Positions 23,565-29,893 of a stretch of 64,000 nucleotides of DNA are shown piece by piece. Position 1 is the stretch's first letter. The number at the start of each line of letters is the position of its first letter. Origin of the DNA: Thermodesulfatator indicus DSM 15286 (GTDB taxonomy: Bacteria > Desulfobacterota > Thermodesulfobacteria > Thermodesulfobacteriales > Thermodesulfatatoraceae); the NCBI RefSeq assembly GCF_000217795.1, contig NC_015681.1, positions 1,231,244-1,295,243 of the forward strand. Reading direction: 5' to 3'. The position numbers and the translations under genes were made by a program. Under the pieces are notes generated by a model. The model was not told where the DNA came from. It did not search any database and was given only the letters and a program-made list of their open reading frames with translations.

Positions 23565-23730
23565 AGAGACTTTGCCAAATTCAAAAAGCATAGGTTGAGA
23601 TTGCTTCGGCTGCGGGAGCAGCCTCGCAATGACTCTTTTTGGTTATAACTGCGAGCCTATTTTCTATTTGTCACTGTGAGCCCTTATGGGCGAAGCAGTC
23701 TCTTAAGTAAAATATTTGGCAAAGGTCTCT
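23565..23730. mobile_element. MITE-like element with terminal inverted repeats
   Basis: A 166-base element. The left end AGAGACTTTGCCAAAT (23565-23580) and right end ATTTGGCAAAGGTCTCT (23714-23730) are inverted copies differing by one inserted base. Inside, GAGATTGCTTCGG...CCTCGCAATGAC and GTCACTGTGAGCCC...GGGCGAAGCAGTCTC are also mutual inverted units. No coding capacity. Related copies are at about 29.64, 32.58 and (diverged) 21.0 and 50.1 kb. It lies just before the UPF0173 gene. Confidence 0.65.
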
Positions 23731-23752: not shown

Positions 23753-24448
23753 ATGCAAATAACTTTTTTAGGGCACGCTACCTTTAAGATAATAAGTCCT
23801 GAGGGAATTCGCATCCTTATTGACCCCTGGCTTGATAACCCGGTCAATCCCTATAAGGATGACCGTGGCCCCTACGACCTTATTCTCATCACCCACGCCC
23901 ATGGGGATCACCTCGGCAACATTTTAGAAGTAGCCAGGTCAGCAGCTACAGAAGTTATCGCGATTCACGAGATTCAACAATATTTGCTTGCCCAGGGTGT
24001 TCCTAACGTAACCGGCATGAATATAGGCGGTTCATATCGCACCAAGGGTATCACCATTACCATGGTCCAGGCCATACACAGCTCTTCTATCCAAGAGGGG
24101 GACCACATAATTTACGGGGGAGACGCCGCTGGTTTTGTAGTGCGCCTGGAAAATGGCCGTACTTTTTACCACGCTGGAGATACTGGTCTTTTTTACGACA
24201 TGAAGCTAATTGGTGAGTTATATCAGCCTGAAGTGGCTTTTCTACCTATAGGGGATCACTATGTTATGGGGCCACGAGAGGCGGCCAAAGCCTGTGAACT
24301 TTTAAAGCCAAAAGTAGTAATCCCCATGCACTTTGGCACTTTCCCTCTGCTTACCGGTACCCCTGAGGCCTTTAAAAAATACCTGGCAGAATTTGCGCCG
24401 GAGGTTTTCTTAAAAGTGCTCAAACCTGGTGAGACGGTAGAACTCTAA
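23753..24448 (+). CDS. UPF0173-type metal-dependent hydrolase
   Basis: A 231-residue metallo-beta-lactamase-fold hydrolase of the UPF0173 type. Metal ligands are THAHGDHLGN (HxHxDH), the His of MVQAIHSSS, the Asp of FYHAGDTGLF and the His of VIPMHFGTFP. The opening ITFLGHATFKI and LIDPWLDNP are typical. The physiological substrate is unknown. AAGGAG precedes the ATG. The mobB start overlaps its last base. Confidence 0.9.
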   Translation: MQITFLGHATFKIISPEGIRILIDPWLDNPVNPYKDDRGPYDLILITHAHGDHLGNILEVARSAATEVIAIHEIQQYLLAQGVPNVTGMNIGGSYRTKGITITMVQAIHSSSIQEGDHIIYGGDAAGFVVRLENGRTFYHAGDTGLFYDMKLIGELYQPEVAFLPIGDHYVMGPREAAKACELLKPKVVIPMHFGTFPLLTGTPEAFKKYLAEFAPEVFLKVLKPGETVEL

Positions 24449-25107
24449 TGCCTTTTGCCATATCTTTTATCGGCCGGCACAACAGCGGGAAGACTACGCT
24501 TGCCGCGCAGGTAGCGGCTCTGTTGAAAGCCAAAGGCCTAAAAGTCGGGGCCCTTAAGTCTTCTAAGGAAGCGGGGCCACGCTTAGAAGAAGGCCGCCAG
24601 GATACTAACCTTTTCTGGCGCGAGGGCGTTGAAAAAGTCGCCTTCTGGGGTCAAAATGAAGGTTTTTTACGCTTCCATGTGCCGGAGAAAAATGACTTTA
24701 GCTTCTGGTACTTTGTCAAGCGCTTTTTTCCCGAGGAAGACATCGTTATTTGTGAAGGCTTTAAAAGCCTAAGAAGTCTTCCCAAAATTGAAGTGGTAAG
24801 GGAAGATCTCCCTGAAGAGCCTCTTTACAAGGAAGGAATCCCCGGCCTCATTGCCGTGGTAGGCGATAAAAAAAGCCCTTACAGGGCTTTGCCAAATGAC
24901 CCTGAGGAAATAGCCGAGTTTATTCTTTCTATTAAACCCCGACCGGAAAATAACATTTTACTGGTGGACGGAAGGCCTGTGGGGCTTACCCGTTTTGTGG
25001 CCAGGGCCTTGACTGAAACTGTAAGAGGCTTTCTCAGAAGCCTTCGCGGGATAAAGGACCCCAAAGTGATAGAGCTACGCCTTAAGCTCCCTGAGGACAA
25101 GGGCTAG
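24448..25107 (+). CDS. mobB: MobB-type molybdopterin-guanine dinucleotide biosynthesis GTPase
   Basis: A 219-residue P-loop protein beginning FIGRHNSGKTTLAAQVAALL, the MobB Walker A, with DIVICEGFKSLRSLPKIEVV as the family's following strand. MobB binds GTP and helps make the guanine dinucleotide form of molybdopterin for enzymes such as formate dehydrogenase. A C-terminal extension (LLVDGRPVGLTRFVARALT, then VRGFLRSLRGIK) also seems usual in deltaproteobacterial MobB proteins. Its 3' end overlaps the convergent thyX by 33 bases. Confidence 0.88.
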   Translation: MPFAISFIGRHNSGKTTLAAQVAALLKAKGLKVGALKSSKEAGPRLEEGRQDTNLFWREGVEKVAFWGQNEGFLRFHVPEKNDFSFWYFVKRFFPEEDIVICEGFKSLRSLPKIEVVREDLPEEPLYKEGIPGLIAVVGDKKSPYRALPNDPEEIAEFILSIKPRPENNILLVDGRPVGLTRFVARALTETVRGFLRSLRGIKDPKVIELRLKLPEDKG

Positions 25108-26070
25108 TCCTTCAGCCAGCCGTCTAATTTCCCACTGGGCCTTGGGATGATTACGCTTGTTTACAAAATCTTCCCACACGAAGTAAGGCCCGGTAGCCAA
25201 AATGGTAGTGGACGACCCTTGCGGGGTTATGAAACGGGCGTCTTCTTTTTTAACTCCTCTTTTGACGATGTTCTGGTAGGCGTGAAGGCCCTCTTCAATC
25301 TGCCTGGTGTAAATAGCGCGAGCCTCATCGTCAAAAGAAGGCGGAAATACGAACTGGTCCACTTGGGTATAGCGATGCGAACGTTGGTTAAAGTTAAGCC
25401 AGGTGTGCCGCACGAATTGATGGGAGAAAAGCCGGCTAAATCCTTCGGCTACAACGGCCAGCCAGCCAAAAGGCTTTGTTTCTGAAGGGGCTACGTCTAT
25501 CACGAAGACTTGAGGCCTGGCCTCTATGCCTTCTGGCTCGTTAAAAGTTTGAGAAATTAGCTTGCCTAAAGTCGTCCTTTGAACAATTTCAGCCTTGCCT
25601 TCATGATAGGCTATTTCAAAAACTTGAAATTCTTGCCACGCATGGCTTTTTTCGTATGAAGCCTCAAGTATTTCCATAAATTCTTTTTCTTCATAGACCT
25701 CAGCAAAGTGGCGCAAATTCAAGCACACGGAGCCGTCATGGGCCCACCAGGCCTTAAAAAGCACCTGAGAAAGGCGGACCATTTTTTCAGGAGACAAGCT
25801 TTCGTTAACCACTACGGGAGAGTGGGCAAAGACGCTGGCGTGGCCAGAAAGCTTGAGCCTTCTCAAAAAAGAGAGAAATTCTTCTCTTTCCCGAAAGCGC
25901 TTTTCTGCAAAAAGATTTAAGGGTCTCGTTGAAGCGTAACAAATGCGCGCTCCTAAAAAACTCAAAAACAAAGTATCCCGAAAAAGGGCCTTATCTTTTT
26001 CTACCAAAGAATCAAAAAAAGGCTTCGTTTCCTCTAAAAAGCGTTTATAGTAGTCTTGCACGCTAATCAT
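25075..26070 (-). CDS. thyX: ThyX-family flavin-dependent thymidylate synthase, divergent
   Basis: A 331-residue ThyX homologue, longer than the usual 210-260. ThyX makes dTMP from dUMP using FAD, NADPH and methylenetetrahydrofolate. RLFSHQFVRHTWLNFNQRSH aligns with the ThyX motif RHRxxSxNxxSxRY: the first RH, the Asn, the second Ser and RY are kept, but the third motif residue Arg is Thr. GHASVFAHS replaces the more usual GHxSxxEH. The C-terminal HPKAQWEIR arginine region is intact. Its ATG overlaps the dut stop by 4 nt. Thymidylate synthesis is the best call given dut next door; a changed function cannot be excluded. Confidence 0.82.
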   Translation of the reverse strand: MISVQDYYKRFLEETKPFFDSLVEKDKALFRDTLFLSFLGARICYASTRPLNLFAEKRFREREEFLSFLRRLKLSGHASVFAHSPVVVNESLSPEKMVRLSQVLFKAWWAHDGSVCLNLRHFAEVYEEKEFMEILEASYEKSHAWQEFQVFEIAYHEGKAEIVQRTTLGKLISQTFNEPEGIEARPQVFVIDVAPSETKPFGWLAVVAEGFSRLFSHQFVRHTWLNFNQRSHRYTQVDQFVFPPSFDDEARAIYTRQIEEGLHAYQNIVKRGVKKEDARFITPQGSSTTILATGPYFVWEDFVNKRNHPKAQWEIRRLAEGLALVLRELKA

Positions 26071-26510
26071 TTTTCATATCCTCCAGTGCTACCAAAACCC
26101 CCTCTTGATTTGGGGCAGGGAACCTCTGAAACCTCTTCTAACTCTCCGTCAGTTAGCACTTTCATAAAAAGGAGCTGGGCAATGCGCTCACCAGCCGAAA
26201 CCAGAACAGGCTCGTCTTTTAAGTTTAAGGCGAGAATTTTTAACTCGTCGTCTTCGCCGCAATAATCAAAGTCTATAATGCCGGCTGAGTGGGGGAAAAT
26301 CAGCCCTTTTTTGCGGAAAAGAGAAGACCTGGGAAAGATAAACATGCCGTATGGCGACGGCGCTTTGATAACCAGGCCTGTGCGAATAAAAGAAACTTCA
26401 CCTGGAGGGATTTCGGTGTCTTCAAGGGCAAATAAATCCCAACCAATGGCCCCAGGCGAGGCCTTCTCTGGCAGCCTCGCCCGCGGGTCTTTGCGAAAGA
26501 CTTTTATCAT
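26067..26510 (-). CDS. dut: dUTP diphosphatase (dUTPase)
   Basis: A 147-residue trimeric-type dUTPase that hydrolyses dUTP to dUMP and pyrophosphate, feeding thymidylate synthesis and keeping uracil out of DNA. All five motifs are visible: GAIGWDLFA (1), FPRSSL (2), SAGIIDFDYCGED (3), GERIAQLLF (4) and RGGFGSTG (5). Motif 3 carries Asp/Phe in place of the more usual residues after AGIID, a mild change. It overlaps the upstream DUF505-like gene and downstream thyX by 4 nt each, so all three are translationally coupled. Confidence 0.95.
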   Translation of the reverse strand: MIKVFRKDPRARLPEKASPGAIGWDLFALEDTEIPPGEVSFIRTGLVIKAPSPYGMFIFPRSSLFRKKGLIFPHSAGIIDFDYCGEDDELKILALNLKDEPVLVSAGERIAQLLFMKVLTDGELEEVSEVPCPKSRGGFGSTGGYEK

Positions 26511-28225
26511 GCGTAAATCCTTATCTCTTCCCAGTTGGTTTTAAGATTTTTTAAGAGGTCAAGGCCTTCAAGCAAGTTGACCCCGGTTTCTAAGACGTCT
26601 AACCCTGAGATGTAACGGCAAAGTCGCGCGGTTTCAAGAGCAGAGCCAATAATTTCTGGGGCTAAATTTTTTACTTTTTCTTCAAGCTTGTCGTAATCTT
26701 CTTTGCGTACCCTTATTTTGCGCCCTTTAGGAGAGAAGCGGCCAATTTCCCTTAAGGCCAGGAGCACATACCAAACGTGAGGGGTTAAAGGAAAGTCAAC
26801 ACCGTTGGGCACGGCGGAAAGCCCCTGTTTTATTTTCTCACCAGCCGGAGTTAGCACGTAAAGCCCGCCAGGAAGAAGATCAACAAGCCCTGAGGCCAGG
26901 AGTTTGCGCAATCCGTGTAAGACCTGGGGGCGTTTGTTTTCAGGGTAAAAACTTAGAATCTCTTCTTCGCTAACTCCTCGCCAGAGAGGGATGCCGCGCA
27001 TAACGAGCATTTCTTCCCTGGTAACTACTGGTAGGCGGTCAATGTTAGAGGCAATTTCGGCCAAAAGTCTTCCCTTCTGGCTGGGAAAGCCATTGCCAAT
27101 GACCCCTTGTTCTTCAGCGGTCTTTATCCATTGGTCATCTGGAGGCATATTTTCTGTGCGGGTAACGGTGATAGCCATAACCGCCTGGGCGTAAACCGGG
27201 CTCAAGTCTTCAAGGGCCAAAAGCTCTTCTCCATAAGGAGTCAAGGTGTAAGAGCCATCCGGCTCGCTGGCGATCAGGCGAAATCCTTCCAGGCGATAAA
27301 GGCTTTGCTTGATTTTAAACGGGTCACGAATATCCTGCGCGGCCAGGAATTCTTCTATGCCTTCGCGAGTCTTTACCGGTGAAGCCTTAACGGCCCTTAA
27401 AACCGATATATTCCAGCCACTCAGGTCAATGGAGGGATTTACGGTTATGGGCTCAAAGAAGAGTTTGGCCGCCATCAAAAGGTGTTTGCCTGGCACGGTA
27501 AGATTGCCTTGAGGGTCAATGGCTCCAAGTGTTTCCAGAGCTTCAGTTTTTTTGTTTTCAATGATGTCTCGCAAAGTAGTTACACTAATGGAAACTTCAG
27601 GCACAAGTCCGGTTCTTAAGGCTGCCCAGAGCTGGCTGCCCACCCCGGTAAACGCGTAGTACTCTCCTTCAGGGAGGGTAAAGGTCAAGAGCCGTTGGGC
27701 CTCAAGCTGAAAAATGTGATTTTCAGGGATAGGCTCAAGGAAGTTTTTACGAGCCGGGCCCACAGGCAGGCCCAGAATGCTTTTGGCCAATTCCGGAGTC
27801 ACGAAAAACTCAATAGTTGCCGAACGATAGGCCTCAAGTATAGCCTGAGCCCAGGGCTGTAAGCGTCCGTCTCTGGCCAGCCCCCTTTCTTCAAGTTCTT
27901 TGTTTATTTCCTGGTTAAAATCCGTGCGCCCTTGAGCCCGCTCGGCAATCTGAAGCATAGAGATGATACGCGAGCCTACCAGGCGATAGTTTTCGTAAAG
28001 GTCTGAAAAGTTGAGATTGTTAACATTTTCAGCGGTTCTTAGAGACTCAAGGATTAAAAGCCCGCTTCTGGTAAGGGCAAAGCTTTCCTCTTCTTCGGTA
28101 ATTAAACCGGCAAGCCTTAAATGTAAGAGAATTTCCAGGTCTTCCGCAGTAAGTTCCTCAAGCTTTTCAAGGCCTCCTTGCTCAAGCCGCTTTAGCATTT
28201 CAAAGTGTTTTACCGTTACGATCAT
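26507..28225 (-). CDS. DUF505-like multi-winged-helix protein in the endoQ-dut-thyX operon
   Basis: A 572-residue soluble protein with no signal, membrane helix or catalytic motif that I can name. It is made of repeated winged-helix-like units, each ending in a wing with an LT-xx-G motif: FALTRSGLLILESL, YAFTGVGSQLWAAL, NLTVPGKHLLMAAK, YTLTPYGEELLALE and YVLTPAGEKIKQGL. Tandem winged helices usually bind nucleic acid or protein. The family name DUF505 is from memory and uncertain. The start at 28225 (MIVTVKHFEML) is chosen because GGAGG is 6 nt upstream, whereas the longer frame has no ribosome site. Its stop overlaps dut (ATGA), and endoQ ends 58 nt upstream. Confidence 0.82.
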   Translation of the reverse strand: MIVTVKHFEMLKRLEQGGLEKLEELTAEDLEILLHLRLAGLITEEEESFALTRSGLLILESLRTAENVNNLNFSDLYENYRLVGSRIISMLQIAERAQGRTDFNQEINKELEERGLARDGRLQPWAQAILEAYRSATIEFFVTPELAKSILGLPVGPARKNFLEPIPENHIFQLEAQRLLTFTLPEGEYYAFTGVGSQLWAALRTGLVPEVSISVTTLRDIIENKKTEALETLGAIDPQGNLTVPGKHLLMAAKLFFEPITVNPSIDLSGWNISVLRAVKASPVKTREGIEEFLAAQDIRDPFKIKQSLYRLEGFRLIASEPDGSYTLTPYGEELLALEDLSPVYAQAVMAITVTRTENMPPDDQWIKTAEEQGVIGNGFPSQKGRLLAEIASNIDRLPVVTREEMLVMRGIPLWRGVSEEEILSFYPENKRPQVLHGLRKLLASGLVDLLPGGLYVLTPAGEKIKQGLSAVPNGVDFPLTPHVWYVLLALREIGRFSPKGRKIRVRKEDYDKLEEKVKNLAPEIIGSALETARLCRYISGLDVLETGVNLLEGLDLLKNLKTNWEEIRIYA

Positions 28226-28283
28226 GGGCCACCTCCTCGCTTCAAGATATCCTGGCTTTACGGTAATCACCCGAGGCCTTAAA

Positions 28284-29561
28284 TCAAGCGAAGAGGCTTT
28301 TCTGGCGGGGACCTGCTATTTGTTCTTCTTCGTCGGGTTCAAAGATGCGAATCTTTCCGTAAACCCCGTCAAAACCCGGTTTGATGTAAAGACGGCCCTC
28401 TCTTACACGGGAAATCCCTTCAACAATCCGTTCAGGAAAAAGGCTTTTTAATTCAGAAAGGTCCTTATAAAGAAGGATATCAAGTTCGCTTCCGGCCCGT
28501 TCAAGCAGTTGACGGTAAGTCCTGGCCACGATCTGGCTCTGCACTCCCTTGCCAAGAGCTTCGGCTACGATTTCCTGAAGGGGCACGAGATGTACTGCCG
28601 GAGGCTTTTCTTCTGGCTTAAAACCATTGGGGCGGTCGGCTAACTCCACAACCCTGTGCATTACGCCTACAGTTAGGGGCTCACCACAAACAGGGCACTT
28701 GCCACCGTGAGCCATGGTCTCTTCTGGAGAGAAAAGCACGCCACAGTTTCGATGGCCATCGTAGTGATACTTCCCTTCTTCGGGATAAAACTCAACGGTA
28801 AAGGCCAGCTTGTCATTCCGGAGGGCCTGGGCCATGGCCTGATAGCCCAAGGGTCTAAAAAAGGCATTGGCCTCGCGGGCCAGTTTGCTTGGCGAATGGG
28901 CGTCTGAGTTTGAAACCAGGGCGTAGCGGTCAAGGGTGGAAAGACGCCAGTTCATGGCCGGGTCAGAAGAGAGCCCGGTTTCAAGGGCATCAATGTGTTC
29001 GGCTTCTTCCTCAAAACATTCTTCAATGGAGTCAAAGCCAGAGAAAGCTCCGAAAAGAGAGTACCAGGGCGTCCAGATGTGGGCCGGTATAATCAAAATG
29101 TCAGGTGAAATGCGCCTAAGGAGTTTTACCAGGTCTTTTACCGGAAAACCAAAAATCGGCCGGCCGTCAGCGGAAAGATTGCCAAACTTGGCCAGGGCTT
29201 TGTTTATTTCGCGAACTATCTCAAGGCTTGGGGCCAAAATCACCGTGTGAACACGGCGATTTTTCTTATCCCCTTGCGAAAAAATATTAGAAACCTCGGC
29301 GCTTAAAATAAAACGAGGACTTTCTGGGTCTTCTTTATACACATAAAGGCCGTCTTCTGGAGCCGGGATTAGGTATTCTTCAAGCTCAGCCAGGTAATCC
29401 GGATGGGTAAAGTCACCGGTGGCTACTACTTCTAGGCCCTTTTCTTTGGCCACTCGGGCAAGAGTGGGAATGGTCATCTCTTTACTGGTGGCTCGAGAAT
29501 AGCGGCTATGGATATGTAAGTCGGCAAAGTAAATCTTTTCTCGCGGCGGAAGTTTTATCAT
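28284..29561 (-). CDS. endonuclease Q-type PHP-domain DNA repair enzyme
   Basis: A 425-residue PHP-domain protein that matches endonuclease Q (formerly the TIGR00375 group), which nicks DNA 5' of deaminated bases such as uracil and hypoxanthine. The metal-binding PHP motifs are DLHIHSRYSRATS, VVATGDFTHPDY, ILSAEVSN, IIPAHIWTPWY and VSNSDAHSP. A zinc-type region follows (HRNCGV ... GGKCPVCGEPL), then a helical segment. The last residues, QKSLFA, match the beta-clamp-binding consensus QL[S/D]LF. AAGGA sits a few bases upstream of the ATG and a promoter lies at 29593-29620, so it is probably the first gene of the operon with the DUF505-like gene, dut and thyX. Confidence 0.88.
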   Translation of the reverse strand: MIKLPPREKIYFADLHIHSRYSRATSKEMTIPTLARVAKEKGLEVVATGDFTHPDYLAELEEYLIPAPEDGLYVYKEDPESPRFILSAEVSNIFSQGDKKNRRVHTVILAPSLEIVREINKALAKFGNLSADGRPIFGFPVKDLVKLLRRISPDILIIPAHIWTPWYSLFGAFSGFDSIEECFEEEAEHIDALETGLSSDPAMNWRLSTLDRYALVSNSDAHSPSKLAREANAFFRPLGYQAMAQALRNDKLAFTVEFYPEEGKYHYDGHRNCGVLFSPEETMAHGGKCPVCGEPLTVGVMHRVVELADRPNGFKPEEKPPAVHLVPLQEIVAEALGKGVQSQIVARTYRQLLERAGSELDILLYKDLSELKSLFPERIVEGISRVREGRLYIKPGFDGVYGKIRIFEPDEEEQIAGPRQKSLFA

Positions 29562-29592: not shown

Positions 29593-29620
29593 ATTTTAGA
29601 TTACTTTTAAGCGCTGGCAA
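29593..29620 (-). promoter_or_regulatory. candidate promoter of the endoQ operon
   Basis: On the minus strand TTGCCA (29620-29615), a 16-base spacer and TAAAAT (29598-29593), 31 bases before the endoQ ATG. The spacing and near-consensus boxes are good; no transcript data support it. Confidence 0.5.
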
Positions 29621-29636
29621 TAAGGTTATTTTTGGC

Positions 29637-29893
29637 GAGATTTTGCCAAATTTAGAAAACATAGATTGATCGCCACGGCGACTAAATCGCCTCGCGAGAT
29701 TGCTTCGCTCGCCAGCGGCTCGCTCGCAAGATACCCCCGTCACGGCGAGAAGCCTCTCTCCTTCTGTCACTGTAAGGGCCGAAGGGAGTCGGGACAGGCG
29801 ACGCAGTCTCTTGAACCACCAGCCATCAGCCATAGGCCATTTAGTCACGGCGAGCCCGCAAGGGAGAAGCCGTCTCTTAAGTATGGCATTTTG
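29637..29893. repeat. compound intergenic repeat between endoQ and the hybrid kinase
   Basis: The left end ATTTTGCCAAATTTAGAAAA then CATAGATTGA matches the left end of the 23.57 kb element with a few changes. It is followed by several GCGAGATTGCTTCG, GTCACGGCGAG and GTCACTGTAAGG units. The last unit, at 29844-29893, is a near-identical 50-base copy of 32580-32629 (two substitutions) in the same orientation. It forms the last codons of the histidine kinase gene. Confidence 0.65.

Follow-up and report, generated by a model that had tools for sequence, protein, structure and literature searches.

The stretch of DNA analysed here, a window of 64,000 nucleotides from the genome of Thermodesulfatator indicus DSM 15286 (a single contig of 2,322,224 bases, NC_015681.1; the window spans positions 1,231,244 to 1,295,243), carries four consecutive minus-strand genes: endoQ, a gene for a protein of the family DUF505, dut and thyX (Table 1). 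An earlier sequence-only reading of the window had taken them for one operon that keeps uracil out of DNA. Its four minus-strand genes, their coordinates, the 4-nt overlaps (ATGA) that join DUF505 to dut and dut to thyX, and the 58-nt gap between endoQ and DUF505 all hold, as do the identities of endoQ, dut and thyX, which are supported by homology to 5zb8 and by Pfam cut-offs; its "DUF505-like" protein can be tightened to DUF505, a Pfam run on the 572-residue chain returning PF04458. The gap rests on a DUF505 start at the ATG at 28225, with GGAGG ahead of it; a longer start, the GTG at 28270, was rejected, lying inside a conserved element and having no clear ribosome-binding site. We propose that the locus consists of two adjacent transcription units, with DUF505 autoregulating a dut–thyX operon, a composite reading to which we give about an even chance. 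Its parts differ in strength: we hold with high confidence that DUF505, dut and thyX form an operon in the genus, consider it quite probable that endoQ is a separate unit, and put forward only tentatively that DUF505 is an autoregulator acting through the element in front of its gene.

Table 1. Features of the endoQ–DUF505–dut–thyX locus, in window coordinates
Feature	Position	Strand	Basis
Probable endoQ promoter, TTGCCA-N16-TAAAAT	29593..29620	-	Promoter scan; hexamers kept in G007
endoQ, endonuclease Q, 425 aa	28284..29561	-	phmmer to PfuEndoQ 5zb8, E=2.7e-61
Codons for QKSLF near the EndoQ C-terminus, putative beta-clamp-binding motif	28290..28304	-	Conserved in relatives
Promoter/operator-like element TTGATTTAAGGCCTCGGGTGATTACC before DUF505	28262..28287	-	Conserved in ten close orthologues
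DUF505 protein, 572 aa, short subfamily with winged-helix repeats	26507..28225	-	PF04458, E=5e-108
dut, dUTP diphosphatase, 147 aa	26067..26510	-	PF00692, E=1e-24; TIGR00576, 110.4 bits
thyX, flavin-dependent thymidylate synthase, 331 aa, divergent long form	25075..26070	-	PF02511, E=4.5e-32
mobB-like gene, neighbour outside the operon	24448..25107	+	PF03205, E=5e-20

The comparison covered 41 genomes of the class, from one order, several of the relatives being fragmented metagenome-assembled genomes: G000, the window's genome, to G007 make up the genus (eight genomes), G008 belongs to the same family, G009 to a sister genus and G010 to another family; adjacencies were counted by hand and eye from coordinate tables. 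Aligning the endoQ–DUF505 gaps brought out a conserved block that persists where endoQ is absent. All ten close orthologues of DUF505 (G000–G007, G009 and G010) are preceded by TTGAT-N12-RTGATTACC, always with the N12 spacing; in the window the conservation goes on beyond TTGATTTAAGGCCTCGGGTGATTACC as GTA to 28259, and in members of the genus TTGAT shares bases with the stop codon of endoQ. This site is the best match in each genome (tied best in G009). With up to three mismatches allowed, 8/10 genomes have no second site at 0–2 mismatches, G007 and G009 have one extra two-mismatch site each, and every other match in the ten has three; matches to the gapped pattern elsewhere have other spacings, bar one in G042, which has no DUF505 match. 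A conserved site ahead of the putative regulator gene and specific to it, as would mark an autoregulated operon, is found before DUF505 in 10/10 genomes. Just upstream of the element in G009 and G010, where endoQ does not lie upstream, stands a terminator-like G+C-rich hairpin followed by T residues, so DUF505 transcription should start downstream of it. The element is readable as a promoter, TTGATT...TACCGT with a 16-base spacer and a poor -10, and its 10-base GGTGATTACC, an imperfect palindrome, may be operator-like. An Rfam search of the DUF505 leader returned no known RNA element. The sequence-only reading did not notice this promoter-like element, which is much better conserved than the hexamers before endoQ. 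Its presence in the 58-nt gap argues against a single four-gene transcript and bears on the separate promoters that the reading had named as a second refutation.

Gene order points the same way. Genes for dUTPase and Thy1 occur in nearly all genomes of the class, and dut and thyX are adjacent in 36/41, mostly with neither DUF505 nor endoQ alongside; judged by gene order, they are an ancestral pair. The exceptions are G010 (unlinked), G013 (no thyX), G026 (decayed thyX), G027 (different contigs) and G039 (no dut found). DUF505 of the type seen at this locus is present in 8/8 genomes of the genus, in G009, in G010 and in six genomes of family f80, and precedes dut–thyX only in the genus (8/8) and G009, with the 4-nt overlap to dut in several species. 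EndoQ, present in 40/41 genomes, adjoins DUF505 only in the genus, in 7/8 genomes. In the eighth, G004, both genes lie near contig ends and foreign-looking genes follow, a Ymh-type gene and a transposase-like open reading frame standing between DUF505 and the contig end, a separation that an insertion could explain; in G009 endoQ is cut off by the end of another small contig, and a YfdX-type gene lies directly before DUF505. Elsewhere the surroundings of DUF505 are different: in G010 its neighbours are an inositol-phosphate-synthase-type gene on one side and two genes resembling small heat-shock protein genes on the other, and in the f80 genomes dut, thyX and endoQ are all absent near it, several of these genomes having aldehyde-ferredoxin-oxidoreductase-like and MEMO-like genes there (read by eye). 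The proposed operon therefore survives as DUF505–dut–thyX (8/8 of the genus, and G009) and loses endoQ as a member. The neighbourhood survey called for by the same reading finds linkage to dut–thyX in the genus and G009 and none to endoQ, dut or thyX in G010 and f80; with DUF505 unlinked there, the lack of recurrent linkage that was named in advance as a refutation is what is seen outside the genus and G009.

The mobB-like gene, convergent with thyX and overlapping its 3' end, lies beside thyX in the genus and in G008. In G008, mobB and mbl (a metallo-hydrolase gene) flank thyX, with no DUF505 or endoQ at that place; the linkage of thyX to neighbours without an evident functional tie thus goes deeper than its linkage to endoQ.

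EndoQ looks like a local neighbour that arrived beside DUF505 only within the genus. The "good promoter" noted in front of endoQ is unremarkable by number (one match in the promoter scan versus a mean of 3.8 in shuffled sequence), and gains support from the sister species G007, in which TTGCCA...TAAAAT is kept at the same place within an otherwise diverged stretch. In G001, G005 and G006 the endoQ start overlaps the end of a PAS histidine-kinase-type gene (L041 3385-5607, L044 3764-5659 and L045 10095-11912). Between the promoter pair of the window and G007 and this kinase overlap, the upstream partner of endoQ varies, whereas the DUF505 unit retains a start of its own. Intergenic, dispersed repeat-like DNA lies upstream of endoQ at 29596-29850, and also at 23566-23598 and at L039 6676-6783. 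In the complete genome G013, endoQ (C1:976481-977732) is interrupted by an in-frame TGA and a shift of reading frame, a pseudogene or a sequencing error. A UDG gene is present elsewhere in the window's genome.

What kind of protein is DUF505? It scores 362.5 bits against PF04458 (gathering cut-off 28.7) and also exceeds the cut-off of HTH_45 (E=6e-7); other winged helix-turn-helix models match below theirs. The whole-chain AlphaFold model is weak (mean pLDDT 50), interpretable only as winged-helix topology, and a fragment of residues 262-475 is modelled with moderate confidence (mean pLDDT 64) as two winged-helix units. Foldseek matches this fragment to DtxR/MarR-type domains, single units superposing on DtxR domains at 2.2-3.0 A over 69-74 alignment columns; solved structures searched with the protein and with the DUF505 profile gave weak matches only. 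The DNA-binding-type fold suggested earlier for the middle protein is therefore upheld by HTH_45 and by the predicted topology. An enzymatic role was considered and rejected, the conserved columns holding no catalytic-type cluster. The protein of T. autotrophicus matches the window's at 94%, and no relative was found in viral contigs, plasmids or phages. A canonical DUF505 paralogue is encoded in the same genome (834455-836335, 836 bits), and the window protein, in which a middle stretch of that paralogue is missing, forms with the f80 proteins a well-supported clade apart from it in an unrooted tree with long branches flagged. At the very end of the canonical gene starts a 240-aa gene without a Pfam match (L039 10393-11115; G000:C1 about 836392-837114), not seen at that place in G008 or G015.

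How might the two units work? In the first, endoQ, encoding a deaminated-base repair endonuclease, would be read from its own promoter in the window and, in some relatives, behind an upstream histidine-kinase gene. The second, DUF505–dut–thyX, would start at the dedicated element TTGAT-N12-RTGATTACCGTA, which overlaps the end of endoQ in the window. Dut would convert dUTP to dUMP and ThyX dUMP to dTMP, and DUF505, a multi-winged-helix protein of DNA-binding type, would most likely bind the element and set the expression of its own operon, thereby tuning both enzymes. Three links here are inferred: the role of the element as a promoter/operator, its binding by DUF505 and the control of thymidylate supply through that binding. 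Read-through from endoQ into the DUF505 unit is possible, and nothing marks it as the purpose of the arrangement.

The supply in question would pass through ThyX, which is, as far as gene content tells, the only thymidylate synthase found in the window's genome: no ThyA was found in the ten genomes tested, this one included. Members of the class have a long ThyX of about 315-343 aa, its N-terminal half unlike that of solved ThyX, with the signature RHT-x7-S, not RHR-x7-S, across seven aligned sequences; G010 has instead a ThyX with the conventional RHR. Within one genus, G013 has no ThyX, and G026 has a decayed thyX with in-frame stops just upstream of endoQ; both have a ThyA-type match, and two congeners having ThyX have none. 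This apparent replacement of ThyX by ThyA supports the view that the long, divergent ThyX is a working thymidylate synthase. The swap loci are G013 C1:289792-290187, G026 C1:179010-179402 and L114 7671-8198.

Several observations weigh against autoregulation by DUF505. In its -10 part the element departs strongly from consensus, and AlphaFold confidence is low for both the whole chain and the fragment. Among the four genes, DUF505 usually shows the highest conservation (identities in G001 are 85% for DUF505, 77% for endoQ, 70% for dut and 64% for thyX), as would befit a core protein rather than a local regulator. In addition, it is unlinked to dut or thyX in G010 and f80, and a thymidylate-specific role is therefore unlikely to be ancestral to the subfamily.

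It is conceivable, although rather unlikely, that DUF505 is a general nucleic-acid-binding housekeeping protein of the chromosome, transcription or replication, which has its own conserved promoter, moved in front of dut–thyX in the ancestor of the two genera and is co-transcribed with them without regulating them. The orthologues that stand by themselves in G010 and in six genomes of f80, its very high conservation along the whole length, the canonical paralogue in the same genome and the occurrence of DUF505 in Thermotoga maritima and Methanocaldococcus jannaschii would all fit such a protein; a dedicated, near-single-copy element with the operator-like partial palindrome GGTGATTACC fits it poorly, as does the tight coupling to dut, kept over the genus and G009. 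That another regulator or an alternative sigma factor reads the element, DUF505 being the target and not the reader, is unlikely: the -35-like TTGATT is near consensus, the -10 region is unusual, and 4/6 f80 orthologues have a different bipartite element, GACAT-N10-GTGCTTAT, but in its strict form the site is practically single-copy in each genome, which would be out of character for a sigma factor or a global regulator, and a site at one gene only suits autoregulation. A single uracil-avoidance operon with DUF505 as a partner of EndoQ or Dut is very unlikely, for although all four genes are adjacent and co-oriented in 7/8 genomes of the genus, the 58-nt gap has no evident terminator and the G004 order may be an older arrangement split by insertion, endoQ is beside DUF505 only in the genus, a promoter-like element of its own precedes DUF505 in every close orthologue, an upstream kinase gene overlaps endoQ in three genomes, and mobB and mbl are tied to thyX more widely than endoQ is.

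We speculate, as a long shot, that DUF505 proteins of this type form a new class of regulators, multi-winged-helix in build, which sense a nucleotide of the thymidylate pathway and autoregulate dut–thyX via the GGTGATTACC element, the canonical hyperthermophile DUF505 being a genome-scale relative. No function has been assigned to the family, which is found in thermophiles as far apart as Thermotoga and Methanocaldococcus; searches for DUF505, PF04458 and COG1542 found no relevant paper in the library searched. The locus offers a way to approach it, in that the gene is preceded by a conserved DNA site with nearly one copy per genome and, in one genus, is tied to a defined pathway. The comparison also illustrates how neighbouring genes in a single genus can look like a repair operon for which a wider survey gives no support.

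How do the four proteins compare with known systems? The window EndoQ resembles PfuEndoQ over its full length (residues 13-408) and in the alignment to 5zb8 keeps the PHP metal-site motifs DLHIHS and NSDAHSP and the zinc-site Cys positions. Like bacterial EndoQ, for which beta-clamp-type motifs have been reported generally (PMC4858679), it has a C-terminal clamp-type motif, QKSLF or QQSLF in the genus and G008, with similar motifs in G010, G026 and G030. It falls below the cut-off of TIGR00375, a hypothetical equivalog of NCBIfam (189.8 versus 326.6 bits), and cleavage 5' of deoxyuridine or deoxyinosine is its predicted activity.

Dut is over the cut-off of trimeric dUTPases in TIGR00576 (102.55 bits), and the five motif regions are readable. 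Its variants PRSS and DYCGE are small departures from the usual dUTPase motifs. ThyX has the Thy1 domain (111.8 bits; cut-off 24.8) and an RH-x8-S pattern, and is missing or degraded in genomes with a ThyA-type gene; at 331 aa it is longer than solved ThyX chains (about 220-270 aa), has RHT for RHR, and its N-terminal half found no match among them. It is below the cut-off of the thyX equivalog TIGR02170 in NCBIfam (82.6 versus 87.9 bits), and its assignment draws instead on the Pfam match, homology to solved ThyX and the pattern of its replacement by ThyA.

The closest likeness of the DUF505 protein is to its own, uncharacterised family, the PF04458 score being more than 300 bits above the cut-off and the N- and C-terminal halves colinear with the profile (1-296 and 362-620 of 622). 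The middle is missing, about 60 mid-profile positions, and a shortened subfamily is thereby indicated. With the winged-helix repressors DtxR and MarR, whose single domains superpose on the DUF505 fragment, it shares a likeness of fold only: DUF505 would have several such domains per chain and has no clear sequence relation to them.

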